Shown one piece after another: positions 4,866-47,371 of a stretch of 64,000 bases of DNA; the first letter of the stretch is position 1, and each line of letters opens with the position of its first letter. The stretch comes from Niabella beijingensis (GTDB lineage: Bacteria; Bacteroidota; Bacteroidia; Chitinophagales; Chitinophagaceae). The translations under genes and the position numbers were made by a program. Location: NCBI RefSeq assembly GCF_020034665.1, contig NZ_JAIQDI010000001.1, positions 434,001 through 498,000 of the forward strand, written 5' to 3'. A model generated the notes under the pieces. It ran no database searches and was not told the origin of the DNA. It saw only the letters and a list, made by a program, of their open reading frames with translations.

Positions 4866-4929
4866 ATTATTTTATTTAGTACCTCTTCAAGTGATTTGTA
4901 AGTACACCATACGCGGCAGCTTATGGTCC

Positions 4930-4990
4930 GAGCTTATGGCTCTCTACCGTTTTTACGAATATCCGGCAACGACCCGGGGTTCGTTGCCGG
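4930..4990. repeat. Further copy of the palindromic repeat
   Basis: In the 340-bp gap 4866-5204, GAGC-TTATG-GCTC (4930-4942) is followed by a perfect 10-bp stem, CCGGCAACGA (4963-4972) pairing with TCGTTGCCGG (4981-4990). The stem corresponds to the TAACAACGAAC hairpin of the 3.1-3.5 kb cluster, but the outer pairs changed on both arms (AA/TT to GG/CC). That is a compensatory change that keeps the structure. The rest of the gap shows nothing recognisable. Confidence 0.65.
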
Positions 4991-5204
4991 AACACGGACC
5001 GGGGCTATACCTCTTATAACACCTCCGTTACCATGAAAGGCAACAGGCCCAATATCAGCAGACCACTCCGGATCCGAACATTCGGATTATTCCACAAAAA
5101 TGCCTCCTATCTGAGATCTGAGTACCAGCGGCACGATATACTTTATTAACCTGACGAATACGATAAGAACACCAACCACGGCCTGACATTAACTTCTTAC
5201 CATT

Positions 5205-5915
5205 TTAAAACCATTTCATAATCCGGTCTGCGATTAGCCGGTGGCCTTTCCCATTGGGGTGATTGCTCTGCGCCATATAATCGCGTAGCTGTTTTCCGTT
5301 CCGGGCCTGCTCGTAAAAAGCGGCATAGCTGTCTGCAAGACCGATCTTATATTTTGCAGCCAATTGTATCAGCTGCTGACTGAACTGACTCAGGATATTA
5401 TCCTGCTTAAGAATATCCACCGTAAGATCCGCAGAAGGGGTCATCAGGATGATCTTTATATGCTTCTTCAATGCCTTCCGGATCATCTTCTCCATGGCAA
5501 TCCGGGATGCTTCCAGGCCAATGGCCCGGTCGTTGAGGGCATAATCGATAAACAATACATCCGGGCGGTGCGGCAGCACCTCCTTCTCAAACCGCTTTTG
5601 TCCCTGCACGGAATTTTCGCCGCCGATGGATGTGGTGATCACATTGATGACGGCATTGGGATACAGCTCCTTCAATTGCTGCAATACCTGGTGCGGGTAG
5701 GCTTCCAGCGTATGCACCGCAGGCGTTTGAAAATACCCGCTGGGTACGGAATGCCCGTGAAATACCAGGTTGATCGTCCGGTTGGCGGGCCATTTCTTTT
5801 TCAATTCGGTCTTCAGCTCCTCCAAGTAGGTTTGCGGATCTGCCTGCGCCATTCCGGCCACGGCCCAGTGCAATGCCAGAATAAGCAGTGATAAACGGGT
5901 CATCCAGTTTTTCAT
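5205..5915 (-). CDS. Secreted SGNH/GDSL-type esterase
   Basis: The start is placed at the ATG at 5915 rather than the longest frame (5996). It follows the PL8 stop by 16 bp, has a purine-rich AAAAAG before it, and begins a clean signal peptide ending AGMAQA; the product is 236 residues. SGNH blocks are visible: catalytic Ser in FHGHSVPSG (about Ser56), the oxyanion Gly in SIGGENS, the Asn block in IDYALNDR, and the catalytic His in QSNHPNGKGH (about His219). The residue usually Asp before this His is Asn here. In polysaccharide loci such proteins usually remove acetyl or other ester groups so that lyases and hydrolases can reach the chain; the actual ester is unknown. Confidence 0.82.
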   Translation of the reverse strand: MKNWMTRLSLLILALHWAVAGMAQADPQTYLEELKTELKKKWPANRTINLVFHGHSVPSGYFQTPAVHTLEAYPHQVLQQLKELYPNAVINVITTSIGGENSVQGQKRFEKEVLPHRPDVLFIDYALNDRAIGLEASRIAMEKMIRKALKKHIKIILMTPSADLTVDILKQDNILSQFSQQLIQLAAKYKIGLADSYAAFYEQARNGKQLRDYMAQSNHPNGKGHRLIADRIMKWF

Positions 5916-31044: not shown

Positions 31045-31776
31045 TTACAATTTTCCCGTCACCTGTTCGGGATTCTTAAAACGAATAATTCCCCAGGTTT
31101 GTTCGATTGCCTGATCCAACAGATCAGAAGCCTCCTTAAAACTTATATTCCTCTTGTCTTCATGATATAACTTATACTGCAATACTATATATCCGACATT
31201 CTTTTTGTACAACAAAACTTCTTTCTCCAAGCCTATTGCACAAGAAGGAGTATATTTGTAAATCCATTGTACAATAAAAATACTATCCGCATTAATCTTA
31301 GTCCCGTCGTGCTTTGATTTCAACAAAAAATCTTCTTGGGGAAAACAAGGCCGTTTATCGCTCCAAGCATTTTGACCAGATCTGAACGCTATCCATCTCC
31401 TATATTCGGTTTCCACAATAGAATCACGCTTCTCAATAGCTGCATCAGGAATTTGATCTAACATTTTTTTGGTTTCAATAAAGTTCCTCCAAAGCTGATC
31501 TTCTCCACATTTATTACTTCGAACGAAATAAGCAACTCCTATACGATTCTTTTTAGTAAAATTGTTACGTAAATATCCCCGGAAGCATGAGCTGGTGTTT
31601 GTGGGGCTTTCATTTGTCCAGACACTATCCGATATCTGGAAAAAGCTGGCATTTACGCTATCCAGCTTCCCTGAAATCTGTTCTGCGGGTATCGGCTTTA
31701 ATAAAGTATAAGGTTGTGCATCAACCCTATACTGCATAATCATACAAACAATGATCAGATAATTTAGTTTTTTCAT
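31045..31776 (-). CDS. Secreted protein of unknown function
   Basis: A 243-residue protein with a signal peptide (MKKLNYLIIVCMIMQYRVDA, cut near QPY). The mature part has several Cys (SSCFRGYLRNNF, SNKCGEDQLW, RPCFPQEDF, PSCAIGLEKE), suggesting disulfides, and no catalytic motif I recognise. Its ATG overlaps the stop of the double-glycine-leader gene (ATGA), so translation is probably coupled. That pairing suggests the two products work together, for example as partner, inhibitor or anchor. Confidence 0.7.
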   Translation of the reverse strand: MKKLNYLIIVCMIMQYRVDAQPYTLLKPIPAEQISGKLDSVNASFFQISDSVWTNESPTNTSSCFRGYLRNNFTKKNRIGVAYFVRSNKCGEDQLWRNFIETKKMLDQIPDAAIEKRDSIVETEYRRWIAFRSGQNAWSDKRPCFPQEDFLLKSKHDGTKINADSIFIVQWIYKYTPSCAIGLEKEVLLYKKNVGYIVLQYKLYHEDKRNISFKEASDLLDQAIEQTWGIIRFKNPEQVTGKL

Positions 31777-32546
31777 TTGGGAGTCAGGGTTGTAACAGCA
31801 AGCATTTCAGAAGCAAGCATGAATAGTCCAACTTCGTTATTTTGTTTATCATCATAACCGATCAACCAGTTACCATCATCATCTTTAAAATAACCGGTTA
31901 TATTCACAGCATGGCTACCTGTTTCAGTATTGAAAAAACCGACCCCTTCGAAGGGAACGTTAGTCCACTCGGGGGTATCATCCGGCAGATCCATAATGTA
32001 ACCGGTTCCCGCACGTGTATCCGTCGCAAATCCGTTCATGTCAGCTGCCAGATCAAGTATATCCATAAGAGAATTCTGGGCATCCACTCCATTAGTAATA
32101 TTATCCGTTCCGTGATGTTGATCATAAGCCCCGATCGCGAAAGACGTTGGTACTAAGGTCTGGTTGAGAGGATTAATCATTGAACCCATAAGATAATCTA
32201 ATGCTATAGGCACACAGTCCGTTCGTCCTTCTTCATTACTCATATCAAAGCCAGTTCCAGACCCGACGCTTCCACCATCATATACATAATCCCACCCCCA
32301 CCAATTATCATCTAAATTGAAGTCCATGTTTGCTCCGAGTTGAAACTCATCTTGTGATCCGCCTGGAGCGGTGCCATAGTAACTACCATCGGGGCCTGCT
32401 GTAAACGTGAACCCTTTGGATGCGAGCAATCCCATTATTTCGTCGACCGCTGCGCCGCCAACAATGTTTTTTAATTCAGAAATCGAATCAATAACTTCAA
32501 TTTCATTTTCGAGCTGATCAAAGCTCAGTTTTAGTTTTGTTCTCAT
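31773..32546 (-). CDS. Papain-like (C39-like) protein with a double-glycine leader
   Basis: A 257-residue protein. Residues 1-31 look like a bacteriocin-type leader: charged and amphipathic (MRTKLKLSFDQLENEIEVID ...) and ending SELKNIVGG (Gly30-Gly31), the site cut by C39-peptidase ABC exporters. The remaining body of about 225 residues is acidic and Gly/Asp-rich. It carries a papain-like arrangement: Cys111 in RTDCVPIALDYL, His212 in GSHAVNITGY, and Asp in IGYDD (232-233). The peptide cargo of such leaders is normally 20-70 residues, so a whole enzyme-like domain behind one is unusual. No exporter is encoded in the window. It is the first gene of an operon with a secreted protein and a tandem glycosyltransferase-like protein. 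Function is inferred only. Confidence 0.7.
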   Translation of the reverse strand: MRTKLKLSFDQLENEIEVIDSISELKNIVGGAAVDEIMGLLASKGFTFTAGPDGSYYGTAPGGSQDEFQLGANMDFNLDDNWWGWDYVYDGGSVGSGTGFDMSNEEGRTDCVPIALDYLMGSMINPLNQTLVPTSFAIGAYDQHHGTDNITNGVDAQNSLMDILDLAADMNGFATDTRAGTGYIMDLPDDTPEWTNVPFEGVGFFNTETGSHAVNITGYFKDDDGNWLIGYDDKQNNEVGLFMLASEMLAVTTLTPK

Positions 32547-36303: not shown

Positions 36304-37089
36304 CTATTTCATCAACTCCCGGAAAAAATCGCTTGCTTCTGAACCGGTTGCAATGCTAAGTTCACCGATGGCACATTGGATATCGATCATCGTAGTGGCA
36401 ACCCATTTCGCAACCTTTTTAAAAATACTCAATGGGCGGACCTGGACTTTTACCATACCAGGGGCAAAGCCAGCCCTTTGGAATAGCCGTGGCAGCTCAT
36501 TGGGATCATAACTTTGCTTTAATTCAGGTTGCTGAATCCATCGAAAGCCGGAATATCTTGCGATGGATGTTGCTTTTAGAATCACTTCCCGATCGCCAAC
36601 CGGCAGGCTGCTTTTGATTACGCTTTCTTCAAAACACCTGATGGCGCCTTTAAATTCGGGATAGGTGCAGCTGTCCGCTGAAACATCTTCTATTATTTTA
36701 ACTAGCTGAGACAATCTTTTTTTGACAGAATCGCTCCATTGGTATCGATCGATGTATCCGTTCACATCCGTAGCAGCGTCCATCACATTTTGCGGAATTT
36801 GGTCGAAATGGTCTGGAGTAAGATCCTGCCACTTGTGCATGTCATAGAATTTGCGGATATAATTACAAGAAGCGCTGAACCCTGTGCAGTTGCCAGTTGT
36901 ACGCTGTTTATCAATGGAATCCAGGATTACATTATGCCAGTAGCCAAAACTGTCGTACGGATTCATTAAATTAGCCGGTTCATTTTCAGCTGCCACCGAT
37001 ACCCGCTGCGTATTTTCGTTTTTCTTACAGCCCGTTGAAAAAATGAATACTGTAATACATGCGATTATAGTTGAAAAGAATATTTTCAT
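36304..37089 (-). CDS. Lipoprotein of unknown function in the conjugation module
   Basis: A 261-residue lipoprotein (lipobox FSTGC, Cys21, then Lys-Lys). The mature part is mostly helical with a Cys pair region (GNCTGFSASCNYIRKFYDMHKW) and a hydrophobic C-terminal helix (SIFKKVAKWVATTMIDIQCAIGELSIAT). It follows traN by 62 bp in the direction of transcription, at the place where traO to traQ would be expected in CTnDOT-type elements, but it does not resemble them. It could be a cell-surface factor such as an exclusion lipoprotein; that is inference. Confidence 0.6.
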   Translation of the reverse strand: MKIFFSTIIACITVFIFSTGCKKNENTQRVSVAAENEPANLMNPYDSFGYWHNVILDSIDKQRTTGNCTGFSASCNYIRKFYDMHKWQDLTPDHFDQIPQNVMDAATDVNGYIDRYQWSDSVKKRLSQLVKIIEDVSADSCTYPEFKGAIRCFEESVIKSSLPVGDREVILKATSIARYSGFRWIQQPELKQSYDPNELPRLFQRAGFAPGMVKVQVRPLSIFKKVAKWVATTMIDIQCAIGELSIATGSEASDFFRELMK

Positions 37090-37151
37090 TTTAATTATAT
37101 TTTTCCGGCAATTACCGGGAATGAAAAAAATATTTTGGAATAACCAACCTC

Positions 37152-37979
37152 TCAGCGCAGTCTATGTGCCTTTAGAAAAAAGCGACTTTTGATAGGAAGC
37201 ACGATCATACGACCTCCGGATTCATCACTTACCTGTGTAACCAGCCGCTGATGCTTGGGCACCGTAAAGGGTTTAAAACCTGCCGCCCATACCGAAGTGG
37301 ACCGCCCACTGATTGTACTCAGCTCTGACATATAAAGTGGGAATACTTCTGTCTCATTGAGAGCCGTTCGTTTCATTCTCTTTTTATCACGTAAGAAAAA
37401 TCGGATATAGGCCGGTTGAAAATCCACCTGGGATTGATTGTTAATGTCGAACTTCATCCAAAGGTTATTTTCGGAATAAAACACGCCATTTAACCTTAAC
37501 CGGAGCGCCTGGGCATCTTTTTGCAAGTACATAAACGACCGTTTCGCGGCCACGTTCCATGCCTCTTGTTCCAACTCCCTTGCATTGGGCTGTCCTCCCG
37601 AAAGCTTCACCGGACGATTACCCGCAAAACTGATATTGAGATTTAATGGGTTTTCTTCATAGTTTAGAACAAAGGAATAAAACTTACCATCAGCTGTTAC
37701 AACGGAAATATTTGTAGGCACAAATTGCTCGGCACCCGCTTTTAGTTGAAGAATATTCTCAACGCCCTTGGCTTTCTGCGCTAACACTGCATTGCTCCCC
37801 AAATCAACACTTTTTACCGAATAGGGGAAAATCAGGTTTGTAGTCTGGTGATAACCGACAGCAACTTCATAAGGAGCAATTGTAGTAGCTAAAACATCAC
37901 TTTTTTGGGCAAAGGCGGCTTGGCCACCTATATTAAAGAGGATTCCCATTAATCCTACTGCACATAATCTGTTCATCAC
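37152..37979 (-). CDS. traN: Conjugative transposon protein TraN (DUF4138 type)
   Basis: A 275-residue exported protein (signal peptide ending QAAFAQ). It has the TraN pattern: YHQTTNLIFPYSVKSVDLGSNAVLAQKAKGVENILQLKAG, FVPTNISVVTADGKFYSFVLNYEENP, and the late FFLRDKKRMKRTALNETEVFPLY and WAAGFKPFTVPKHQRLVTQ. In the Bacteroidota type IV secretion system TraN plays the role of VirB9, lining the outer part of the channel. It is 18 bp after traM. Confidence 0.88.
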   Translation of the reverse strand: MMNRLCAVGLMGILFNIGGQAAFAQKSDVLATTIAPYEVAVGYHQTTNLIFPYSVKSVDLGSNAVLAQKAKGVENILQLKAGAEQFVPTNISVVTADGKFYSFVLNYEENPLNLNISFAGNRPVKLSGGQPNARELEQEAWNVAAKRSFMYLQKDAQALRLRLNGVFYSENNLWMKFDINNQSQVDFQPAYIRFFLRDKKRMKRTALNETEVFPLYMSELSTISGRSTSVWAAGFKPFTVPKHQRLVTQVSDESGGRMIVLPIKSRFFLKAHRLR

Positions 37980-37997
37980 AATGGAAAATTTAAAGGT

Positions 37998-39344
37998 TTA
38001 AAAATTATTTGACTTTTTGTTATCGTCTCTCAGCAGAACCTGGTAACCTGCTGCCACTGTTACCCGGACCAATTTTGTAGTGCGACCAACTAAATTTTGC
38101 GCCATATTTAAGCCAGCGGTAGCCATTTGCGTACCAAAAGAAGGATCAAGTGTACCCAAAGTACCCAGACCTTGTACCGATTGAGCAGCAGATCTTTTTG
38201 CTACATCCCGAGTGATCGCACCCGGAATATCGATTCCGGAAAGGCCATCCTTCTTATCATATACCGTAAGCGCAACAGGTAATATTCTATTATTGTACTC
38301 AATAGAAGAAACTTCGATTTGCAAACGATCACCATTTAAGGTCGCTTTGCCATAAACAAAATGATTTTTAGGTATTTTTATGCCTGCAACAAATATTTCT
38401 TCCAGTAAACGCATTTTTATTGTCGCTCCGCTCACAAGCGTTTGAGCCTCTGGTATTGATGCCGGGATAGACCGTCCCTGTTGTGTTTGCGTCTCAGACT
38501 CTACCAGCGAAAAAAAACGATTACTGTTCTGATAAGCGCGCAACGTTTCAGATATGGTATCGCTGTTATTTCGGGAAAGAATTTCATAAAGATCGCGCCG
38601 GGGTTCTAACCGTGAAACCACATTCTCCGGAGGTGTTTCCAGTGCGAAAGCCTGCATTTTATTCTTTTCAGATTGCTGCCGCAATTTGTCCTGGACTCTC
38701 TCCGGATTTTGAATGTCCATTATTTTTTCAAGCATGCCATTTAATTGGAGTAGTTCTGTATCCGGGCCCTTCTCCTGGTTTATTTGATGCATCATATTTT
38801 CCAGCTTTTCAACATCGGGATTGTAGGAGGGATTGGGTGAAGCAGCTGCGGAAACGGTTTCTTCCGGATTTCGGTCCAATTCTCTCTGAAGCCTGGAAAG
38901 CTTTTGATATACTTTTTGTTCGTTACGATCCAGCTTTTTAGAATATGGAGATTTTTCACTTTCATACAACCTCTCACTAAATTCCGCCTCAGAAACCCCA
39001 TTCATGCTGGGCTGTTCCTCTTCATCTTCCAAAGACTGAAAGAATGGATCACGTCGCATCTGTGACCGGAGTTTTGCAGAATCTTTATCCGCCTGTTCGT
39101 AATATCGGAGTTTATTCCAGTTGCTATCCTTTGCGGGAGCAGCTGATGGTAAATTCAAATTAAAACCCTGTAACCCTTTTCTTCCGTTAGATTCTCCTTG
39201 TGCATTTCCTACCAAACCAGTGGTCCATAGAAAAAGTACAAGAAATGGAACTATTAATACAGGTGCAATTAGTAAAAATTTCCTTCGCCGCAGAAACTTT
39301 GCCGAATATTGCTGATTTTCATTCCCCTCATTTTTCTTTTCCAT
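37998..39344 (-). CDS. traM: Conjugative transposon protein TraM
   Basis: A 448-residue inner-membrane protein: short cytoplasmic N-terminus, one transmembrane helix (about 27-47, FLLIAPVLIVPFLVLFLWTTG), a long charged linker (about 60-260), and a conserved C-terminal domain (SGATIKMRLLEEIFVAGIKIPKNHFVYGKATLNGDRLQIEVSSI ... LPVALTVYDKKDGLSGIDIPGA). This is the VirB10-like architecture. Its start overlaps the end of the preceding 165-residue gene by 17 bp. Confidence 0.9.
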   Translation of the reverse strand: MEKKNEGNENQQYSAKFLRRRKFLLIAPVLIVPFLVLFLWTTGLVGNAQGESNGRKGLQGFNLNLPSAAPAKDSNWNKLRYYEQADKDSAKLRSQMRRDPFFQSLEDEEEQPSMNGVSEAEFSERLYESEKSPYSKKLDRNEQKVYQKLSRLQRELDRNPEETVSAAASPNPSYNPDVEKLENMMHQINQEKGPDTELLQLNGMLEKIMDIQNPERVQDKLRQQSEKNKMQAFALETPPENVVSRLEPRRDLYEILSRNNSDTISETLRAYQNSNRFFSLVESETQTQQGRSIPASIPEAQTLVSGATIKMRLLEEIFVAGIKIPKNHFVYGKATLNGDRLQIEVSSIEYNNRILPVALTVYDKKDGLSGIDIPGAITRDVAKRSAAQSVQGLGTLGTLDPSFGTQMATAGLNMAQNLVGRTTKLVRVTVAAGYQVLLRDDNKKSNNF

Positions 39345-39825
39345 CTTCGTTTATTTTTAATTGTTTATGATACACTCTCTCGATATAAACCAGGCTATCA
39401 AGTAATCCGGGTCTGACATGTGCTATACTGTCATATATTATGCGACCCGATTTTGTTAATAGCAGACTATCCAGGTGCCGCCGGATCAATCTGATATTTT
39501 CAATTTCTTGATCAGTTAATAACAATTTTGCTTGCAAATCTTCATTGGGAACCTCAACTGTCTGAGGTATAGAAATTGGCTGTACCTTAATGGTTTTCTC
39601 AGACGACTTTAAAGAATACCAAATTGTAAAGGCAGAACTACTTCCAAATAACAGGCAGAACAAAACCAAACCTATTAGCTGTTGCCTGGAATTGAGGGTT
39701 GCCGTTTTCCGGTTCAAATATTCCGCTGCTTTGCGCTGCTTCGTTTCAATTTTCCGCCCCAATTTTTGAAAAACTCCACTGATCAGCAAAGGGCTTTCCT
39801 TTTTTTTCCTAAAGAACTTAAGCAT
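39328..39825 (-). CDS. Membrane protein at the traL position
   Basis: A 165-residue protein with one transmembrane helix (about 50-70, LIGLVLFCLLFGSSSAFTIWY), a basic cytoplasmic N-terminus and a helical periplasmic part (VEVPNEDLQAKLLLTDQEIENIRLIRRHLDSLLLTKSGR). It lies between traK and traM, where CTnDOT has traL, but sequence similarity to TraL cannot be judged here. It probably belongs to the secretion apparatus. Confidence 0.65.
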   Translation of the reverse strand: MLKFFRKKKESPLLISGVFQKLGRKIETKQRKAAEYLNRKTATLNSRQQLIGLVLFCLLFGSSSAFTIWYSLKSSEKTIKVQPISIPQTVEVPNEDLQAKLLLTDQEIENIRLIRRHLDSLLLTKSGRIIYDSIAHVRPGLLDSLVYIERVYHKQLKINEDGKEK

Positions 39826-39836
39826 GGTTCAGAAGT

Positions 39837-40451
39837 TTATCGATTATCAGTCTTAATGTCATTGTTGCTAACAATCTCCCATCGCTCAATTAGAAAACCG
39901 TGGCTATTATTATCACTCTGCAACATACCCGTGCGAACATAGCCTTGCGTTACGATACTTCGGGTAAGCACAGATGTAGGTCGGGTAATATATTGCCGTC
40001 CTAAACAACGGAACCGGTAAGGTGTAATACTCATGTCCAGCTCAATGCTGTCAATGTCTATGGTCTGCGAAATATTACCCGAAATAATATTATTATAATA
40101 ACCAGCCTCTTTTAAATTCTGGTATTCCCGTCGCGCGGAACCATCTGCCAGGTACAGGGCCTTAGATATCTGCGTTTGTATCGCCTTCTCGTCCGGGGAG
40201 AGGGTAAAGAAAAGGGTGTGAAATGTCCTTATATGGTCTCGAAGCTCGACAGGAATATTGCGTTCCATCGCCACGGCCTCTATCAATTTACCATTTACCA
40301 TCACATAGACTTTCCCCTTGTTGGTTGTAAGTGTAACATTTGTTCGATAAACAATATATCCGCACAACAGCATAACTCCGACCACAATAATTATGGTAAA
40401 CAATCGTATAGATCGGAATGCCGTATCAATATTTTTCATTTTTTTGAACAT
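39837..40451 (-). CDS. traK: Conjugative transposon protein TraK
   Basis: A 204-residue inner-membrane protein: one N-terminal transmembrane helix (about 14-35, IRLFTIIIVVGVMLLCGYIVY), then a periplasmic VirB8-like domain. Family-typical segments are RDHIRTFHTLFFTLSPDEKAIQTQISKALYLAD, LKEAGYYNNIISGNISQTIDIDSIELD and RPTSVLTRSIVTQGYVR. TraK is the VirB8-type scaffold of the mating channel. It starts 3 bp after the TraJ stop. Confidence 0.92.
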   Translation of the reverse strand: MFKKMKNIDTAFRSIRLFTIIIVVGVMLLCGYIVYRTNVTLTTNKGKVYVMVNGKLIEAVAMERNIPVELRDHIRTFHTLFFTLSPDEKAIQTQISKALYLADGSARREYQNLKEAGYYNNIISGNISQTIDIDSIELDMSITPYRFRCLGRQYITRPTSVLTRSIVTQGYVRTGMLQSDNNSHGFLIERWEIVSNNDIKTDNR

Positions 40452-40454
40452 ATA

Positions 40455-41738
40455 CTATTCTTTTTCCTTGTCTTTTTTACCACCTCCCTTTAATTTATCA
40501 TACATGTAAGCACCAGCGCCGCCGATCTTGCTTCCAATTTTACCGGCCATCCCCGATCCGGTATCTTTTCCGCTATATCCTTCATGAACATTGAATGGTG
40601 CCTTCATTATATTACCAGCACCCGAAACCGCTCCGGCAGCAAGATTTTCGACACCACCCGCAGCAGCACCAGCCATTCCAGCTGCAACACCACCAGCCGC
40701 CATTGCAGCACCGGTTACCCGACCAGAGAGAGAATCGCCCCCTCCAACCCATAAAACCTGGTTTGCAATATTGGGCACGGAGAAGTATCCTAATATGCCA
40801 ATTATCAAAAAAATCATATACCCCAGGTCCGTCCTGCTGAAAAAAGTATCTCCGGCATCGGCAATCTGGTTGATATCAATCTTCAACATCTGTTCCTGGA
40901 TTTTTCCGATAAGCGCACCAAAAATATTCGCAATGGGGAGCCACAAAAAGACGTTTATATAACGAGCCAACCAATGCTTAAGAGTGTGTCCAAATCCATC
41001 AAAAACAGATAGCCCAAATGCAAGCGGCCCCAGGATCGCAAGGATGATCAGGTTAAATGTCCGCATAGTATTTATTGCAAGAGATGCAGCCGCAAAGAGT
41101 AATTGAAGGATCTCCGCAATTGCTTCCTTAATACTGTTTCTGAAATTATAGGAAGCCTTTGCCATAGCAAACCGGACGTTATTCCCAATCTTTTCCATCC
41201 AGCCCTCACCGGAAGGATCCTCATCCGGGTATGCGTGACGATACCACGCATCCCGGTCTCCTTCCCCTGACGGCCCTACATACATTTCATAATACTTTGA
41301 ATTTTTAACGGCATCTTCCTTCTGTTTGAGTAAAACCGCAATAGCAGCATCTGATTTTTGTACCATATTCCCAGTGCCGTTAACGACCGGCTGCATGACA
41401 CCCTGAATAAGAGCTATACACGCCGGAAAAAAAGCCACGGCAGTGCCAATTACGAACGGTTTAAATAGCGGATAGAAATCAATCGCTTCTGCACGAGAAA
41501 TATGCCCCCAAACCCTGGCTGCAATAAACCAAAGAGCAGCAAAACCAGCAATTCCCCGCCCAACACCGATAAGTTCACTGCAAAGCGGTAACATTTCCGC
41601 ATGCAATTGATCTAAAACGCTATGCAGGCTCTGAATTTCGCCTGTCCAGTCGTTTACGTCTGTCTGCGCGCTTCCGTTTAATGGCAATAGCATGCCCACA
41701 ACCACGGCTATTACAGAGGTTTCCCACATCTTCTTCAT
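40455..41738 (-). CDS. traJ: Conjugative transposon protein TraJ
   Basis: A 427-residue polytopic membrane protein with a cleavable signal (MKKMWETSVIAVVVGMLLPLNGSAQ). The N-terminal family block is LLPLCSELIGVGRGIAGFAALWFIAARVWGHI, followed by several transmembrane segments (about 80-105, 205-260, 275-300, 320-345). A Gly/Ala-rich tail (about 345-427) ends in Lys/Glu repeats. TraJ is VirB6-like, a core inner-membrane channel component. The length is at the upper end for the family because of the tail. Confidence 0.92.
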   Translation of the reverse strand: MKKMWETSVIAVVVGMLLPLNGSAQTDVNDWTGEIQSLHSVLDQLHAEMLPLCSELIGVGRGIAGFAALWFIAARVWGHISRAEAIDFYPLFKPFVIGTAVAFFPACIALIQGVMQPVVNGTGNMVQKSDAAIAVLLKQKEDAVKNSKYYEMYVGPSGEGDRDAWYRHAYPDEDPSGEGWMEKIGNNVRFAMAKASYNFRNSIKEAIAEILQLLFAAASLAINTMRTFNLIILAILGPLAFGLSVFDGFGHTLKHWLARYINVFLWLPIANIFGALIGKIQEQMLKIDINQIADAGDTFFSRTDLGYMIFLIIGILGYFSVPNIANQVLWVGGGDSLSGRVTGAAMAAGGVAAGMAGAAAGGVENLAAGAVSGAGNIMKAPFNVHEGYSGKDTGSGMAGKIGSKIGGAGAYMYDKLKGGGKKDKEKE

Positions 41739-41803
41739 TCATTTCAGATTTAAATCAAACTCACAAAACAATCACACCCACACCATCCAAAATGTCAAAA
41801 TGC

Positions 41804-42439
41804 CTATGGATCACCGTAAATACGACCGAGGGTCTTTGCGTCCTTCATTTCTTTGGCCCGTTGCAAACTAAGGACCTCCGTCTGATCATTAAACTTGCGG
41901 AGAAACTGCAATTTCTCGGACATATCCTTATAAATACCGTCTATAGCAGAAAGTCTTTCTTCATCTGACATACGTAGTTTCTTTGCCGTAATAACAACAA
42001 GCAAATCATCCAAACTCTCCAAACTTTCACTTACCAACTTACCATATATTTTCCCCAGGTAATCAATCTCATCATCGCGGAACCACCCACCCTGTTTAAA
42101 ATGTCCGAATGCCGCTTTATACTCCTTAATAATTCGCAACTGATAATTTATAATATCGCCTACCCGCTTGTACTTTTTTACAGCTGGGCTAACATCCATT
42201 AATCCGTCAAGAAAAACCTGGTGCAATTTGAAATTACCCTCTGAAATATTTTTTACCGTGTTATAACCACCTGTCAGGATCTCGTATCCCTTTTTCATAT
42301 CTGAAAGAATATTCTTGAATTGCGCAAGTTTTTCAATATTTAACGCCAATTGTTCAAGTTCGGCAACCTGCGCTTTTGCAACCATTCCTGCCGCCAAATA
42401 AAAACATAATAATCCCAGAATAATGACATACTTTTTCAT
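41804..42439 (-). CDS. TraI-related periplasmic protein (paralog 3 of 3)
   Basis: A 211-residue exported protein (signal ending GMVAKAQ), helical, with the pattern shared by three consecutive genes. Shared segments are KGYEILTGGYNTVKNISEGNFKLHQVFLDGLMDVSPAVKKYKRVGDII, RDDEIDYLGKIYGKLVSESLESLDDLLVVITAKKLRMSDEERL and the end LQRAKEMKDAKTLGRIYG. Close relatives are often labelled TerB family tellurite resistance proteins; nothing here supports a tellurite role. It overlaps the next gene by 4 bp. Confidence 0.8.
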   Translation of the reverse strand: MKKYVIILGLLCFYLAAGMVAKAQVAELEQLALNIEKLAQFKNILSDMKKGYEILTGGYNTVKNISEGNFKLHQVFLDGLMDVSPAVKKYKRVGDIINYQLRIIKEYKAAFGHFKQGGWFRDDEIDYLGKIYGKLVSESLESLDDLLVVITAKKLRMSDEERLSAIDGIYKDMSEKLQFLRKFNDQTEVLSLQRAKEMKDAKTLGRIYGDP

Positions 42440-43077
42440 TGTCCATACATTTTTTGCACCTCTTTAGCATCCAATAACTCCCTATTTCGTTGTAACTGTA
42501 ACAATTGTAACTCCCCGTAGAACTGATTTACAAATTGACCACGGCGGTCCATTTCAGCATCAAGCGCGTCAATTCTTTTAATTCTTTCATCATCACTCAA
42601 TTGCAACTCTCCGGGCGTCAGTAACTGTATCAATTCTCCGGACAATTCAAAACAGCCGTCCAACGTTTTATTAAAAACACCCAAGACATATTCCAATTCA
42701 TCCCCTGAAAATAGTTCGCTGCTTCGGGCGGATTTTATTGCCCTTTCTGATAATTTCACTACCTTAATATTCAGGGAAACAATATCAGAAACCCGGCTGT
42801 AATTACGCACTTTTGGATTTATCATTTTAAGGCCATCAAAAAAAGCCTGGTCCAGTTTAAAATGACCACCTTTTATATCTCCAATAGTTTTTAGCCCGCC
42901 CTGCACAATTTTGTATCCCTTTTCCAGGTAGCCGGTATAAATCTTTAGTGCCGCTATCTGCTGAATTAAATATTCCGTCTGTGTCTGCTTCTGGCTAAAC
43001 CAATGTTTTAAACCCTGAGTGTGCCCCTCAATACACAGCCCTATCCAAATCCAAGTAAATAATACGTACTTTTTCAT
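42436..43077 (-). CDS. TraI-related periplasmic protein (paralog 2 of 3)
   Basis: A 213-residue exported protein (signal MKKYVLFTWIWIGLCIEGHTQ). It shows the same plan as its two neighbours: EKGYKIVQGGLKTIGDIKGGHFKLDQAFFDGLKMINPKVRNYSRVSDIV, SGDELEYVLGVFNKTLDGCFELSGELIQLLTPGELQLSDDERI, and a C-terminus LQLQRNRELLDAKEVQKMYGQ. It resembles the 211-residue paralog more closely than the 223-residue one. It is probably a periplasmic accessory part of the mating apparatus. Confidence 0.8.
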   Translation of the reverse strand: MKKYVLFTWIWIGLCIEGHTQGLKHWFSQKQTQTEYLIQQIAALKIYTGYLEKGYKIVQGGLKTIGDIKGGHFKLDQAFFDGLKMINPKVRNYSRVSDIVSLNIKVVKLSERAIKSARSSELFSGDELEYVLGVFNKTLDGCFELSGELIQLLTPGELQLSDDERIKRIDALDAEMDRRGQFVNQFYGELQLLQLQRNRELLDAKEVQKMYGQ

Positions 43078-43083
43078 ATCCCC

Positions 43084-43755
43084 TTATTCAATTCCGTATA
43101 ATGCCTTAACTGATTCCACATCCCTCAAATCTTTTGCTCGTTGCAAACTGAGTTTAGCATTCTGAACGTTAAATAACCGAAGATCTGAAAGCGCTGCATC
43201 AATTCTTTCGGCCGCCTGAGAAATTATTTCTAAGCGCCTGCCATCCGTCATTTTGGTATCCATAGATGTAATAACTAAAAAGAGTTGGTCCAGGCTCTTT
43301 ATGCTTTCGTCAACAATACCCGTATATACCCTGGTCATATAGGCAATTTCTTCAGGACTAAAATGGGCATCCTGTTTAAAAAGACCAAACGCCCGTTTGT
43401 ACTCTTCCACCAGCCGGATTTGCTTGGAAATAATTTCTTTCACCTTTCGGTAACCGCTGATCGCCGCTTTCACCTGGGCAAGCTCATCATAGTACTTGGC
43501 ATATTGATCCTTATTCTTCTTAACCCAATCAGAAATTTCGTCCAACTTGACTTTGGAAAGCGTATTTTCCAAAGTCTTTTGAGCGTTCTGCAACCAAATC
43601 GTTTTATTTTGCAGGCGCTGTACTGCCAGGTCCATTGCCTTTATCACCTTTTTCAGTGCGGCTTTAACAACAACCCAAACAATAGCATGGCTTTTTTGAG
43701 TAGGCATTAATGCGAGGCCAAAACTTAGTGAAATTATTAACACAATCTTTTTCAT
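43084..43755 (-). CDS. traI: Conjugative transposon protein TraI
   Basis: A 223-residue exported protein (signal MKKIVLIISLSFGLALMPTQKSHA). It has the TraI (DUF4141) pattern: IVWVVVKAALKKVIKAMDLAVQRLQNKTIWLQNAQKTLENTLSKVKLDEISDWVKKNKDQYAKYYDELAQVK, then the helical block shared with the next two genes (SPEEIAYMTRVYTGIVDESIKSLDQLFLVITSMDTKMTDGRRL; LSLQRAKDLRDVESVKALYG). The extra N-terminal block distinguishes the genuine TraI from its paralogs. VirB5-like helical periplasmic proteins occupy this place in other systems. Confidence 0.85.
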   Translation of the reverse strand: MKKIVLIISLSFGLALMPTQKSHAIVWVVVKAALKKVIKAMDLAVQRLQNKTIWLQNAQKTLENTLSKVKLDEISDWVKKNKDQYAKYYDELAQVKAAISGYRKVKEIISKQIRLVEEYKRAFGLFKQDAHFSPEEIAYMTRVYTGIVDESIKSLDQLFLVITSMDTKMTDGRRLEIISQAAERIDAALSDLRLFNVQNAKLSLQRAKDLRDVESVKALYGIE

Positions 43756-43758
43756 AAA

Positions 43759-44136
43759 TTATCTGATTTTAAGATATGGCGTTTGCCCGAGTAATAGTTT
43801 CTTTTCGTTCAACAGGAAGGTGATAACTTTCCCGTTTTCAGATAAATTCAGCATACCTGTTCTTACGTCATAAATTCCTGTCCATCTTTCCACTTTAAAC
43901 AATTTTCGAGTTTTGACATTACCTTTTGCACGACGAAACCCAGTACGCTTAACAACTGCATACCTATTATTTTCTTGAAAGGTTACAAATAGCGTATCAT
44001 TTCCAGTTGCAGAATCAAGATTATCGGAGTGCACATAAACACCCGGAATAAATTCCAAAATTTCAGGATTCGGAACCCGGTTACAGCTCATCATATACCC
44101 AACAAGAACACCCAGGTAGTATGCTGTCAACTTCAT
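43759..44136 (-). CDS. Small lipoprotein at the traH position
   Basis: A 125-residue protein with a short hydrophobic signal and lipobox-like YMMSC (Cys18, then Asn-Arg). The mature domain is beta-rich: FIPGVYVHSDNLDSATGNDTLFVTFQENNRYAVVKRTGFRR ... GIYDVRTGMLNLSENGKVITFLLNEKKLLLG. It lies between traG and traI, where CTnDOT carries traH. I do not recognise the family. A small surface lipoprotein within a mating operon might serve in entry exclusion, but nothing here proves it. Confidence 0.6.
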   Translation of the reverse strand: MKLTAYYLGVLVGYMMSCNRVPNPEILEFIPGVYVHSDNLDSATGNDTLFVTFQENNRYAVVKRTGFRRAKGNVKTRKLFKVERWTGIYDVRTGMLNLSENGKVITFLLNEKKLLLGQTPYLKIR

Positions 44137-44164
44137 AAAAAATAAGTTTAGATTTCAATAATGC

Positions 44165-45304
44165 TTATGCCAAATTCGACCGTAATTGCGAAGCCAGTTC
44201 CCGGATCCCTGCTTCAATACTACCATGTTCAACTGCAAACTGCTGTACCTTTACTTTTTCTCTTTCCTCTGTAGTATAAGCCAGGTATTCTTCCAATGAA
44301 ACTTCTGTGCGGTAAACTTTTGAAAGCACACCACCGAGAGAAATAAAGACTTCCTTATATTTTTTTGTTGGGTCGTTCGCCTTATTAACCGAAAGTACTA
44401 GCGCCTTTTCTTTTTCTGTCAGTCCCAAAAGTTCCTGGATGTCATCAAACTTATTTTGATATTTGGACTGATCCAGTAAGATCTTACAATCAGAATTATT
44501 AATAATAGCCTGCTTAACAACGGGAGAAGAAATGATATCTTCGATTTCCTGCGTCACAACAATTGCTTCACCAAAATGCTTCCGGACCGTTTTAAAGAGA
44601 TATTTTATATACGCTGCAAAACCCTCCCGCATCAACGCTTTCCAGGCTTCCTCAATAAGAATCATCTTCCGTACGCCCTTCAACTTGCGTATCTTGGATA
44701 TAAAAACTTCCATGATGATCAATGTTACTACTGGAAAAATTGCGTGATCCTTGATATTGTCCAGCTCAAAAACAATGAATCGCTGTTGAAGCAGGTCCAA
44801 ATTTTTCGTGGCATTCAATAAATAATCAAACTCCCCGCCCCTGTAATAAGGTCTGAGCACAAAGAGAAAATTATCGATGTCGAAATATTTTTCCCGAACC
44901 TTATCCTTCTTCAACACATCCTGAAATTCCGTTTGCAGGTATTCATAAAAGGAATCAAAACAAGGAAAGATGCTTTTATCTTTTTCCAGGTTCTCAAAAT
45001 ATCCCTGCAAAGCATTGGAAAGTGCCACGTATTCACTACGCATATAAGATTCATCATCTTTTTTCCAAAGAGCTAACAGGAGCGTTTTAATACTCTCCTT
45101 TTTTTCAATATCCAGGCTGTCGCCTTCCCCGATGTAGAAAGGATTAAACCTGATGGGATCGGATTCCGAATAAGTGAAATAATAACCATCTACTAAATCA
45201 CACAACCCCTTGTAAGAATGCCCCACATCTACCAGCACGATATGCGCGCCTGATTCATAATAGCTCCTTACCATGTGGTTGGTAAAGAAGCTCTTTCCTG
45301 ATCC
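44165..45304 (-). CDS. traG: TraG ATPase, C-terminal part (separated by hairpin insertion)
   Basis: The C-terminal half of the VirB4-type conjugation ATPase. The frame resumes at GGATCAGGAAAG (GSGKSFFTNH, 45304 down), the second half of Walker A. The first ATG is at 45274 (MVRSYYESGAHIVLVDVGHSYKG), giving 369 residues if translated alone. Walker B is at 204-211 of that form (MILIEEAW), with VTQEIEDI and SDCKILLDQ motifs after it. Alone it would lack Walker A and the N-terminal domain. Joined to the N-terminal part without the 44-bp insertion, the protein would be about 820 residues, the normal TraG length, with an intact GPSGSGKS. Either this is a recently broken gene or the gap is bypassed in some way. 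Confidence 0.9.
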   Translation of the reverse strand, partial: GSGKSFFTNHMVRSYYESGAHIVLVDVGHSYKGLCDLVDGYYFTYSESDPIRFNPFYIGEGDSLDIEKKESIKTLLLALWKKDDESYMRSEYVALSNALQGYFENLEKDKSIFPCFDSFYEYLQTEFQDVLKKDKVREKYFDIDNFLFVLRPYYRGGEFDYLLNATKNLDLLQQRFIVFELDNIKDHAIFPVVTLIIMEVFISKIRKLKGVRKMILIEEAWKALMREGFAAYIKYLFKTVRKHFGEAIVVTQEIEDIISSPVVKQAIINNSDCKILLDQSKYQNKFDDIQELLGLTEKEKALVLSVNKANDPTKKYKEVFISLGGVLSKVYRTEVSLEEYLAYTTEEREKVKVQQFAVEHGSIEAGIRELASQLRSNLA

Positions 45305-45348
45305 AGATTTTTATGCCGGGCCACTCAGTTAAGAATGGCCCGGCATAA
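45305..45348. mobile_element. 44-bp hairpin insertion inside the traG Walker A motif
   Basis: On the minus strand the coding sequence ...GGGCCTTCT is followed by this 44-bp block and then GGATCAGGAAAG. Removing the block restores GPS-GSGKS exactly. The block consists of a perfect 13-bp stem (TTATGCCGGGCCA, 45336-45348, pairing with TGGCCCGGCATAA, 45311-45323), a 12-base loop containing the in-frame TGA, and a tail AAATCT. The codon TCT stands immediately before the insertion and again as its last three bases, so it looks like a 3-bp target duplication, or like matched take-off and landing codons. Length 44 is not divisible by three. I see no second copy in the window. Confidence 0.8.
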
Positions 45349-46668
45349 AGAAGGCCCCAATATGAATTTATTCCGGTTAGTGCAAATACCAGCCCTTATA
45401 GGCTCATCGCTTATATCCGCATGTACCGGCTTACCCGTCAGCCGGTCCCCGAGCCGCATACCAATTTCACTGTCACTGTCCCTGTAATTAGTTTCCAGGT
45501 TTAGAAAACAGCAGGCCTGTTCCGCGAACGTATCAAACACATCGTTCATTGGAAAATCAGCCGCGTTTCCGGGAATGCCCGCCCACCAGATCTGAGCCGC
45601 CCCGGCAGTTTCCAATTTAACCGCTGCTTCCATTTGTGCGAGCGCAGAAGTAACCTTATTTTTAATCTCCTTTAGCTCTTCGGGGGTATCCGTCCAAACC
45701 AACACATTAAAATGTGCCTTAACCGGCAGCCGCTGTTCACTCACACATTCATTGAGAAAATCACCAACTGCATCCCGTGCAATAGAATTCTCCCTGGAGT
45801 AAGCCGCTAACGACTGAAGCCGGAGCCGCTTACTTTCCAGCTTTTTCATCGTAACACCCGCATCGCCAATAAATACATATTGATTATAAACATGGTTACA
45901 GGGAAGGAGCAAACCAAGAGTTGATGAAAAACCAACGGAAAACTTTGTCCGGTCACTCGAATACTTGTCATAGTTGATCCGGGATCCACAAAGTGAAGGA
46001 AGATCAGTAACATCTGCCAATGTATACAGCTGGCAGTGCTGATCACCGATCTTCAGTTGATCTTTTAACTGCAAGTCTTTTACTAATAAGTGATCAGGCT
46101 GTTCCGACAAAGTAAAGTAACGCTCAATTAGACCGACTCTGTTGCTCTGGCTATTTATTTCACTTGTTCTAAGCCGTTTCAGTAAAACTCCGGCGTCCGA
46201 AAGGATTCGCGCGAACTGCCCCGCAGAATCTTCAAATTCCTGCAATGCCGAATTACTTACAGTCTGCTCAGGCACAAATGTTGGGCGAAGCAAACTGGTA
46301 AATACAGAACTGGATGCTTTTCTACCCGCTGGCTTCTTTGTTAATGTTATATAACAATCGTGCCTCAAATATGGCCGCCCCTCAAAGAAATTGTTGCTGC
46401 TCCGGGAAAGAAAAGAACCGTCCTCCAATTTTTCAGGCTGGAACTTCGACTGCACAAAATAATCCTGCTTATGAAATACCGTTTCCTTTGGGAGCACCTT
46501 AATGGCTTTAATAAAGCCCTGGTGCAACGCCTCATAATTCTCATCCGATTGGGTAAACACTTCGGGAAGCGTTACTTTAAATACAATGGAAATATCTCCA
46601 TGCTTACTCAAAATACAATCATGCTCCACATCCATTATGGGCATGAGATCGTTTAACCATTTTTCCAT
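45325..46668 (-). CDS. traG: TraG ATPase, N-terminal part (truncated in Walker A)
   Basis: The N-terminal 440 residues of the VirB4-type ATPase, followed by seven residues encoded by the hairpin insertion (LCRAILN) and a TGA stop. Family features are MEKWLNDLMPIMDVEHDCILSKHGDISIVFKV, HKQDYFVQSKF, LRHDCYITLTKK, IGDQHCQLYTLADVTDLPSLCGSR, CNHVYNQYVFIGD and the run into NRNKFILGPS, where Walker A begins. VirB4 ATPases energise pilus/channel assembly and bind the inner-membrane complex through this half. Reading stops before the nucleotide site is complete, so the product alone cannot hydrolyse ATP. It starts 42 bp after the TraF stop. Confidence 0.9.
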   Translation of the reverse strand: MEKWLNDLMPIMDVEHDCILSKHGDISIVFKVTLPEVFTQSDENYEALHQGFIKAIKVLPKETVFHKQDYFVQSKFQPEKLEDGSFLSRSSNNFFEGRPYLRHDCYITLTKKPAGRKASSSVFTSLLRPTFVPEQTVSNSALQEFEDSAGQFARILSDAGVLLKRLRTSEINSQSNRVGLIERYFTLSEQPDHLLVKDLQLKDQLKIGDQHCQLYTLADVTDLPSLCGSRINYDKYSSDRTKFSVGFSSTLGLLLPCNHVYNQYVFIGDAGVTMKKLESKRLRLQSLAAYSRENSIARDAVGDFLNECVSEQRLPVKAHFNVLVWTDTPEELKEIKNKVTSALAQMEAAVKLETAGAAQIWWAGIPGNAADFPMNDVFDTFAEQACCFLNLETNYRDSDSEIGMRLGDRLTGKPVHADISDEPIRAGICTNRNKFILGPSLCRAILN

Positions 46669-46710
46669 ATCTCACACTTTTTCTTCTTCACAAATGATAG
46701 ACCGCCAACG

Positions 46711-47019
46711 TTACCTTATAAATACCTTCCTGCTATTGTTTTTAATCCAATCAGGAATCTGTCGGTTGCCAATTTTTTTCATCAATCCATGCTCACCGTA
46801 TTTCCCGCTCATGCGATAAACCCTTTTAAAAAGAATACCTCCCGTTATAAAAACAATTCCAAGGCAAATGAACATATTCACACCGCATATATATAATATG
46901 GCAAATCCGACCAACAAGGCCACCAATCCACCGCCCAGGTACCATATATATTGTGCTTTAAGTCCTTTAAACATTACAGGCTGGTTCACTCCCCTGTTTA
47001 TTTTATAAACGCTGGCCAT
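46711..47019 (-). CDS. traF: Conjugative transposon protein TraF (DUF4133)
   Basis: The start is chosen at 47019 (MASVYKINRGVNQPVMFKGLKAQYIWYLGGGL), 10 bp after the TraE stop, rather than the longer frame to 47067. The product is 102 residues. Two transmembrane helices (about 27-70) and the ending GLMKKIGNRQIPDWI fit TraF, the VirB3-like small membrane protein that sits beside the VirB4-type ATPase. Gene order traE-traF-traG is that of CTnDOT. Confidence 0.9.
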   Translation of the reverse strand: MASVYKINRGVNQPVMFKGLKAQYIWYLGGGLVALLVGFAILYICGVNMFICLGIVFITGGILFKRVYRMSGKYGEHGLMKKIGNRQIPDWIKNNSRKVFIR

Positions 47020-47029
47020 TGTTCTGTAC

Positions 47030-47371
47030 TTATAGTCCGAAAAATGAACGCAATACTGTGGCCACAATTACCAGGAAGATGCAACTACCAAACCAGCTTG
47101 CCGCAATTTGTCCTGTATGTGGATCCCCTCCGCTCCATCGCTGGTACACCCTCACCGCTCCAACCAACCCAAGTACGGCACCCACGGCATACATTAAATT
47201 GATTCCGGTATCAAAATACTGCCGTACTAACGAGTTTGCTTCTTCGATCCCCTTACTGCCATCCTGGGCATGGGAACTAATACTGCATAAAAAACAAAGA
47301 ACTGTTGTAATAAGCGCATAGCGCTCCCCTTTACTGCCTGAAGCAGTCTTACGCCACATAATCATACTCAC
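47030..47371 (-). CDS. traE: Conjugative transposon protein TraE (DUF4134)
   Basis: A 113-residue membrane protein: signal (ending SSHAQ, about residue 36), GIEEANSLVRQYFDTGINLMYAVGAVLGLVGAVRVYQRWSGGDPHTGQIAASWFGSCIFLVIVATVLRSFF. This matches the DUF4134 TraE family, the VirB2-like pilin-type subunit with two hydrophobic helices. It is the first gene of the tra operon; a large inverted repeat lies about 160 bp upstream. Confidence 0.92.
   Translation of the reverse strand: MSMIMWRKTASGSKGERYALITTVLCFLCSISSHAQDGSKGIEEANSLVRQYFDTGINLMYAVGAVLGLVGAVRVYQRWSGGDPHTGQIAASWFGSCIFLVIVATVLRSFFGL

Follow-up and report, generated by a model that had tools for sequence, protein, structure and literature searches.

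The window analyzed here, a stretch of 64,000 nucleotides from the genome of Niabella beijingensis (positions 434,001 to 498,000 of contig NZ_JAIQDI010000001.1), carries a CTnDOT-type tra gene cluster on its minus strand (Table 1). The traG gene of this cluster encodes a VirB4-like conjugation ATPase and is interrupted by a block of 44 nt that separates the codons for GPS from those for GSGKS within the Walker A motif, just as the original prediction had stated; the other tra ORFs of the window are long and open according to the ORF list. The block is preceded by CCT TCT and followed by GGA TCA GGA AAG AGC. When the downstream half of the gene was translated from its first ATG, it matched positions 49 to 412 of the 413 positions of the Pfam P-loop_TraG model (E 1.8e-197). 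The TGA that had been noted in frame within the block is indeed present, as the eighth codon after the TCT. In the frame of the downstream half, the block contains a TAA that is followed by just AAA TCT, so that no start codon lies ahead of GSGKS.

TABLE 1. Features of the interrupted traG gene and its surroundings (window positions).
Feature	Position	Strand	Remarks and basis
CTnDOT-type tra cluster	36304..47371	-	DUF4134, DUF4133, traG, TraJ, and TraM homologues, others; ORFs, Pfam
traG upstream half	45349..46668	-	440 codons from ATG, MEKW...FILGPS; Pfam DUF3875 and first 38 positions of P-loop_TraG
Putative take-off codon TCT (Ser of GPS)	45349..45351	-	
44-nt coding gap (hairpin cassette)	45305..45348	-	Last triplet is the putative landing codon; sequence, fold, relatives
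Stem 5' arm (mRNA sense)	45333..45349	-	Outermost base doubles as the third base of the take-off codon; fold, covariation
In-frame stop TGA at the apical loop	45325..45327	-	Codon +8 after take-off; sequence
Stem 3' arm (mRNA sense)	45310..45326	-	Fold, covariation
TAA in the landing frame	45311..45313	-	9 nt ahead of GGA; sequence
Putative landing codon TCT	45305..45307	-	
traG downstream half	44168..45304	-	379 codons, GSGKSFFTNH...; stop codon 44165-44167; Pfam

The predicted hairpin is present, and it is longer than first given (a 13-bp stem with a 12-base loop). Its arms are 17 nt long, 94% complementary, and 6 nt apart, and the RNA folds into 17 pairs, one of them G.U, that enclose a 6-nt loop. 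The folding energy of the block (-37.5 kcal/mol) is far below the mean of shuffled sequences (-20.4 kcal/mol; z -5.9), and none of 200 shuffles folded as well. An Rfam scan of window positions 45000-45700 returned three hits, all of them far below the gathering scores. We rejected a group I or group II intron; such introns require more than 44 nt, and no Rfam match in this region came near its gathering score.

The genome from which the window was taken possesses three further TraG-like genes with frames of 839-848 codons. GPSGSGKS is unbroken in two of them, and the third has a different P-loop. Near the tra cluster, we also noticed an ORF of 257 codons (window 31773-32546) whose product possesses an IVGG motif near its start and a Cys-containing region further on; it is possibly a secreted peptide-like protein.

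Occurrence of interrupted traG genes

The original prediction had suggested searching the genome and its relatives for the same block. It is single-copy at home, even when up to three mismatches are allowed, and same-site hairpins are present in related traG genes. In total, we found a hairpin at the identical position between GPS and GSGKS in at least 21 traG genes, which are distributed over 18 genomes, six genera, and two families of one phylum. These counts are lower bounds, since genomes were sampled, first-look filters were applied, and only the matches listed were considered.

Among 17 genomes of the window's genus, the same hairpin was recovered once more, in the traG gene of another species and at the same codon boundary. 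A TraG search of 394 genomes of the family yielded a match at E <= 1e-60 in 118 of them; among the matches listed, eight traG genes possess an open frame of just 381-402 codons, the result of a cut at Walker A, and a hairpin was found at this cut in all eight. A covariance model of the hairpin found matches in 26 of the 394 genomes. Nine places scored above 48 bits, and all nine are traG genes, one of them new; the remaining matches (38 bits or less) were reverse strands of the same hairpins or hairpins located elsewhere. A second covariance model found a match in two of 395 genomes of the phylum, the window's own genome and one from another family. When 246 genomes of this other family were searched, 13 of them gave a match, three of these in traG, and a TraG match was present in 122 of 173 genomes of its genus g204. 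Taken together, the other family contributes at least 12 interrupted traG genes in 10 genomes, with 12 genes stemming from genus g204. An order-level search of 298 genomes returned four matches: two already known, and, both weak, an uninterrupted traG gene and an unrelated palindrome.

Uninterrupted TraG copies also occur, partly inside genomes that hold interrupted ones. Searching plasmid sequences by tblastn with TraG gave at least 5000 records, of which 60 were listed; six of these have no annotation under the match, and the P-loop was uninterrupted in each of the five inspected among them. A nucleotide search of plasmids with the gap region gave no match, and no TraG was confirmed in viral contigs. 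Several short-frame entries of the family search were left out of the count as presumed cuts at contig edges (two in G092, and one each in G387, G184, G236, and G326); G092:C198 and G387 were opened, and their P-loops are uninterrupted. Genome G015 was likewise left out, its traG gene (locus L064) being marked by runs of N and G-rich sequence. The N runs and the G/T-rich sequence of this gene are located just 5' of the P-loop, and the end of this sequence resembles the cassette of G137. Four otherwise long TraG frames contain a single in-frame TAA (G171:C12, G217:C22, G1122:C1:776711, and G1272:C1:2550994), which may reflect other recoding, decay, or sequencing errors.

We rejected a transposable hairpin of the MITE or REP type: the block is single-copy at up to three mismatches, and the nine places scoring above 48 bits in 394 genomes all lie in traG. 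The 18 lower-scoring loci (L074-L091) include no apparent interrupted gene. Two of them have long frames on both sides: in L083 (G040), the upstream open frame ends 2 nt into the hairpin, and in L085 (G362), a weak model match lies inside an uninterrupted frame that runs straight through it. Hairpins outside traG in these Bacteroidota (for example L084, L137, L138, and L143) have a stem of the GGGCCATTC... type and a loop in the style of the cassette, which may itself have originated from a terminator hairpin. Palindromes sharing the ATGCCGGGCCA arms were observed in 15 genome stretches (L011-L025), mostly from other phyla, and in the IMG/VR contig L026 (2523-2550). No long frame leads into or out of the hairpin in the Bacteroidota stretch L017 or in the viral contig L026; several of the other fourteen stretches with these arms, which are G+C-rich, have the palindrome within or beside long open frames. 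The palindromes of these other stretches may be terminator-like.

Codon pairs, covariation, and selection

We counted the gap from the end of the presumed take-off codon to the end of the presumed landing codon. Across the 21 genes its length is 41, 42, 44, 45, 45, 46, 50, 51, 52, 52, and, eleven times, 53 nt. These lengths fall into all three classes modulo 3 (0, 1, and 2), which excludes simple frameshifting. Programmed ribosomal frameshifting was rejected accordingly: the gap modulo 3 differs among relatives, and in the window gene (G000) and G099b the landing frame is closed by a stop codon 9 nt ahead of GGN.

In one of two neighboring registers, the take-off and landing codons match in their first two bases and in their wobble class in all 21 genes, which are related, 12 of them coming from one genus, and represent by our judgement about six independent lineages. 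The control registers (-2, -1, 2, and 3) gave a codon match in none of the 21. Six genes possess Ser to Ser pairs (TCT-TCT, TCC-TCT, TCC-TCT, TCC-TCC, TCT-TCT, and TCG-TCA) and fifteen possess Gly to Gly pairs (GGT-GGC once, GGG-GGA fourteen times). Since the third base is identical between the paired codons in just three of the 21 genes, the pairs are not simply retained target-site duplications. This speaks against one element of the original prediction, a 3-bp target duplication left by a minute mobile hairpin: in 18 of 21 genes, the two triplets of a pair have different third bases yet belong to one wobble class, and the block is not repeated in its own genome. According to ARAGORN, the window genome encodes Ser(GGA), Ser(UGA), Gly(GCC), Gly(UCC), and Gly(CCC) tRNAs. 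By ordinary wobble, the first four read TCY, TCR, GGY, and GGR codons, respectively, and Gly(CCC) reads GGG alone.

The take-off codon as defined by the match ends exactly 6 nt ahead of the CGGG core of the stem in all 21 genes, and an in-frame stop is located at codon +8 in 20 of them (including the window gene) and at codon +7 in G001. The Ser and Gly types differ in their protein register by one codon; because the 6-nt spacing and the position of the stop are kept despite this shift, the take-off codon, the stem, and the stop move as one unit. On the 3' side, the spacing between the core and the landing codon varies from 6 to 18 nt.

Covariation was assessed on 12 aligned inserts, with nine near-copies from genus g204 left out of the 21; the alignment row for G099b is one base off register at its ends, outside the stem core. 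In this alignment, 94.8% of the cells pair and ten stem pairs have changed on both sides. The covariation score of 0.378 was not reached by any of 500 shuffles (0.162 for shuffled alignments), and structures slid along the alignment as a control scored 0.017-0.077. The count of further pair types did not rise above that of the shuffles, 212 of 500 being as high (24 of 500 when eight inserts alone were used, a set that otherwise gave a similar picture). A U.G pair retained in nine of the 12 inserts fits an RNA structure better than a DNA palindrome.

To judge selection on the gene, we estimated dN/dS separately for the two traG halves of 12 interrupted pairs. These 24 comparisons gave 16 estimates, eight comparisons being saturated in dS. 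Fifteen of the estimates are at 0.009-0.057; the outlier (0.174) comes from two nearly identical genes and concerns their N half. Uninterrupted pairs gave three values, at 0.017-0.033. Both coding halves of interrupted traG are thus, as judged from these ratios, under purifying selection. The window gene and that of G002 have diverged at 97 of 152 and 67 of 117 fourfold sites but share an identical 30-nt hairpin core. All 21 upstream halves have an open frame of at least 441 codons, and 20 of the 21 downstream halves have one of at least 378. In the remaining case (G703, locus L154), a second frame displacement near the 3' end places the last part of TraG in another frame; this is either a real lesion or an assembly error. 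The TraG downstream half of G002 contains an extra in-frame stretch (L027, about 9700-9750; SPSPTLPEGKGG), which looks like a small in-frame repeat insertion.

The nine codons 3' of the gap encode GSGKSFFTN in 20 genes and GSGKSFYTN in one, in 12 distinct DNA spellings. Inside the insert, the landing frame has no ATG, GTG, or TTG in eight of the 21 genes, the window gene among them. As GSGKSF[FY]TN is kept in these start-less genes as well, its codons are selected as protein there, even though an ordinary start codon within the insert could not bring a ribosome to them. We rejected a recent pseudogene or a sequencing artefact, as the same type of insert is present in 18 assemblies, with covariation and purifying selection. 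The original prediction had seen a hint that the interruption is recent or tolerated; the comparison does not bear out a recent origin, but it does bear out tolerance.

Candidate translational bypassing and its alternatives

Inserts at the same site in twenty related, strongly selected genes imply that ribosomes most likely jump the hairpin. We therefore regard programmed translational bypassing of the traG mRNA, similar in its logic to that of T4 gene 60, as very probable on the strength of the comparative sequence pattern. A ribosome with peptidyl-tRNA-Ser would leave the TCT at the foot of the hairpin, with the hairpin forming or re-forming in or ahead of the A site. It would then pass 44 nt without decoding them, and the same tRNA would re-pair with the TCT just past the 3' arm, so that decoding would restart at GGA and yield a continuous GPS-GSGKS Walker A motif. 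Ribosomes that fail to take off would translate seven codons of the stem region before terminating at the loop TGA, thereby making only the N-terminal half. Relatives would use the same cassette with Ser or Gly codons for take-off and landing. For ribosomes melting the hairpin, the conserved loop stop would end translation, either as a safety stop or as a regulatory output. The TCT to TCT jump of the original prediction gains strong support from the relatives, as a matched pair restores GPSGSGKS in all 21 homologous interruptions. Selection on both halves suggests that a full-length fused TraG is made; the efficiency of the jump may regulate its amount and could thereby affect conjugation. Several points count against bypassing: the stop is 7-8 codons away from take-off, neither an internal Shine-Dalgarno sequence nor a GAG ahead of landing was observed, the 21 genes are related, the count of further pair types stays within its shuffles, another take-off site also finds a match in 16 of 21 genes, G703 has a further frame displacement, and uninterrupted TraG copies are present in the same genomes, where a damaged copy could be tolerated.

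A ribosome might also jump from a position deeper in the insert, taking off just before the loop stop (at AAT, AAC, or the like) and landing on a like codon before GSGKS, which would add 8-10 residues to the P-loop. The stop would then adjoin the take-off codon as it does in T4 (PMC11194080, as far as accessible), all 12 genes of genus g204 have AAT before GGA and AAT or AAC before the stop, and some match in the landing frame exists in 16 of the 21 genes. Such a jump fails, however, in the window gene and in G002, G007, G018, and G137; the position of the matching codon varies, more than one candidate per gene had been allowed for, and the product would not have the first Gly of GxxxxGKS where it belongs. 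We consider this take-off site very improbable. Equally little credit is due to a TraG split into two proteins, of which the N half would extend to the loop stop and the C half would restart in or after the hairpin. Candidate starts do exist: a landing-frame TTG overlaps the loop stop in 10 of the 12 g204 genes and in G137, a GTG follows the stop in G099a, and many of the genes printed have an ATG 3' of GSGKSFFTNH. Restarting from the latter would nonetheless omit Walker A, the eight genes without any landing-frame ATG, GTG, or TTG in the insert keep GSGKSF[FY]TN like all the others, and the codon matching in 21 of 21 genes would be left unexplained; two separate proteins are therefore quite unlikely.

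The same protein would result if the hairpin were removed from the RNA, either as a tiny intron or by cutting and religation, and the hairpin is indeed conserved in sequence and located at a fixed site. The three Rfam hits far below their gathering scores provide no match to a known RNA family, the 3' boundary is not fixed relative to the stem (core and landing codon are 6 to 18 nt apart), and codon matching restricted by wobble would not be expected, which makes removal from the RNA hard to credit. Excision could instead operate on the DNA of some cells, through recombination between the short repeats that flank the palindrome. These repeats comprise just 2-3 bp, and in 18 of 21 genes their third bases disagree; furthermore, the insert should disappear from a population in which the empty form is favored, and we give DNA excision hardly any weight. 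The same holds for a plain pseudogene, in which insertion of the hairpin would have killed traG, as in the second reading of the original prediction. A stop does interrupt the ORF, other TraG copies reside in the genome, and one of the 21 genes (G703) has a further lesion. This reading fares very poorly against the dN/dS values of 0.009-0.057 in 15 of 16 estimates, the open halves on both sides of the gap, and the covarying hairpin, all of which speak for an old and conserved interruption.

Natural bypassing is known from very few cases, of which those in T4 gene 60 and in yeast mitochondria are established; the accessible text of the review that states this lists T4, Magnusiomyces mitochondria, and a few unproven bacterial or phage cases (PMC5009743). 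As in programmed bypassing generally, the two ORFs of traG are separated by a gap whose lengths across the 21 genes fit no constant frameshift. The traG genes share with gene 60 matched take-off and landing codons (Gly in 15 and Ser in 6 of the traG genes), a stop codon within the gap (excerpts of PMC5009743, PMC11194080, and PMC3014915), and an RNA hairpin at the take-off site (fold z -5.9, covariation, and the fixed 6-nt spacing). The gene 60 mechanism involves a stem-loop in the A site, and sliding is processive at less than 56 nt, a range that includes the traG gaps of 41-53 nt (PMC11194080, in part). There are also differences. The stop of gene 60 adjoins the take-off codon, whereas that of traG is located 7-8 codons further on, in the loop. 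Gene 60 possesses 5' and 3' stem-loops, but traG has one strong hairpin that starts at the take-off codon. A weak Shine-Dalgarno-like GAG precedes the gene 60 landing site by about 6 nt; in traG, no internal Shine-Dalgarno sequence became apparent, and no GAG was found between stem and landing codon when the printed sequences of the interrupted genes were inspected. Gene 60 also depends on a nascent-peptide signal. The NRNKFILGPS stretch 5' of the traG gap occurs in uninterrupted TraG proteins too, and the comparison cannot therefore single out such a signal. Bypassing of gene 60 is apparently unique to T4 among T4-related phages, according to the available part of a 2010 review (PMC3014915), whereas the traG case concerns a bacterial conjugation gene family with two codon types and signs of horizontal spread.

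The mitochondria of Magnusiomyces capitatus contain 81 bypass sites that are seemingly independent of context and include several imperfect codon matches; short non-coding blocks within genes are skipped there by the ribosome, as we propose for traG, so that their insertion is tolerated (PMC5009743, in part). In contrast to this system, the interruptions of traG occupy a single conserved site of a single gene family, their codons match strictly, and their bacterial hairpins belong to one family. A 29-nt hop was reported for an adhesin gene of Prevotella loescheii, also a member of the Bacteroidota and also short; it concerns a single gene for which the lack of follow-up was noted, and no comparative family is described in the part of the review available (PMC5009743). 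A bacterial candidate tied to a UUA codon has a much shorter gap than traG (same review, PMC5009743, in part). Searches of openly licensed PMC papers brought up no title, abstract opening, or passage (of PMC5009743, PMC11194080, PMC3014915, and PMC3711429) that reports bypassing in TraG.

Counterparts of the established cases have long been presumed to exist, and instances with a regulatory role would widen interest in bypassing, according to the review text at hand (PMC5009743). The traG family would represent the phenomenon in bacterial genomes and, seemingly, on the move. Its 21 natural variants, with covarying stems, two types of tRNA, and gaps of 41-53 nt, form a comparative set that reveals which features are retained. 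If our reading is correct, automatic gene calling would present functional TraG genes as two separate ORFs, and a ribosome jump may set a limit to conjugation in these bacteria.

Scattered distribution and possible movement of the cassette

Interrupted genes lie dispersed among uninterrupted sisters. A tree was built from 41 TraG downstream halves, nine of them from the interrupted genes found first and 32 from genes with an uninterrupted P-loop, with some duplicate rows. On this tree, the distribution of the interrupted genes needs six changes, and well-supported branches force at least three of them. As few changes sufficed for 14 of 500 label shuffles; the bootstrap of the tree is unsettled, and some of its branches are long. 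The interrupted gene of G137 groups with closely related uninterrupted copies. Compared with five of these sisters, it is 76-92% identical at 120-300 nt on either side of the gap, and 60-63% identical over the last 30 nt before the gap and 63-76% over the first 30 nt after it. In the same 30-nt windows, four pairs of uninterrupted genes are 76-96% and 83-93% identical. The first 30 nt after the gap in G137 are 93-96% identical to those of three interrupted genes of the other family, but at 120-300 nt downstream the identity to these genes is just 66-83%. Over the 30 nt before the gap, G137 is 63-70% identical to genes of the other family, with no clear donor. From these identities, we take the 3' flank of G137 to be the probable remnant of a short conversion tract by which the cassette passed from one family to another.

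We tentatively entertain the possibility, far less firmly than the ribosome jump itself, that the hairpin with its built-in take-off and landing codons is a horizontally moving cassette, spread by recombination over short tracts among the conjugation ATPase genes of different bacterial families. It has so far been seen in P-loop codons only, and it would survive there by means of the ribosome jump; it might also serve as a valve on the translation of TraG and hence on DNA transfer. A homing endonuclease accompanies the bypass region of T4, but no homing endonuclease domain was found by Pfam in 26 selected neighbor proteins from the window and from 19 kb around each of eight other interrupted traG genes.

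The neighborhoods of the interrupted genes differ in several respects. In G002, a gene for a PAPS-reductase-domain protein (L027:6875-7675) lies within the tra operon between the DUF4134 and DUF4133 genes, and the interrupted loci with which it was compared had no such ORF. Upstream of the interrupted traG gene of G007 lie a gene for a protein with an AbiEii-type toxin domain (L126:5291-6130) and an ORF adjoining it (4716-5294). RteC regulators are encoded close to interrupted traG genes in G080, in both loci of G099, and in G001 (L122, L124, L125, and L127), which ties the clusters of these three genomes to CTnDOT-type regulation.
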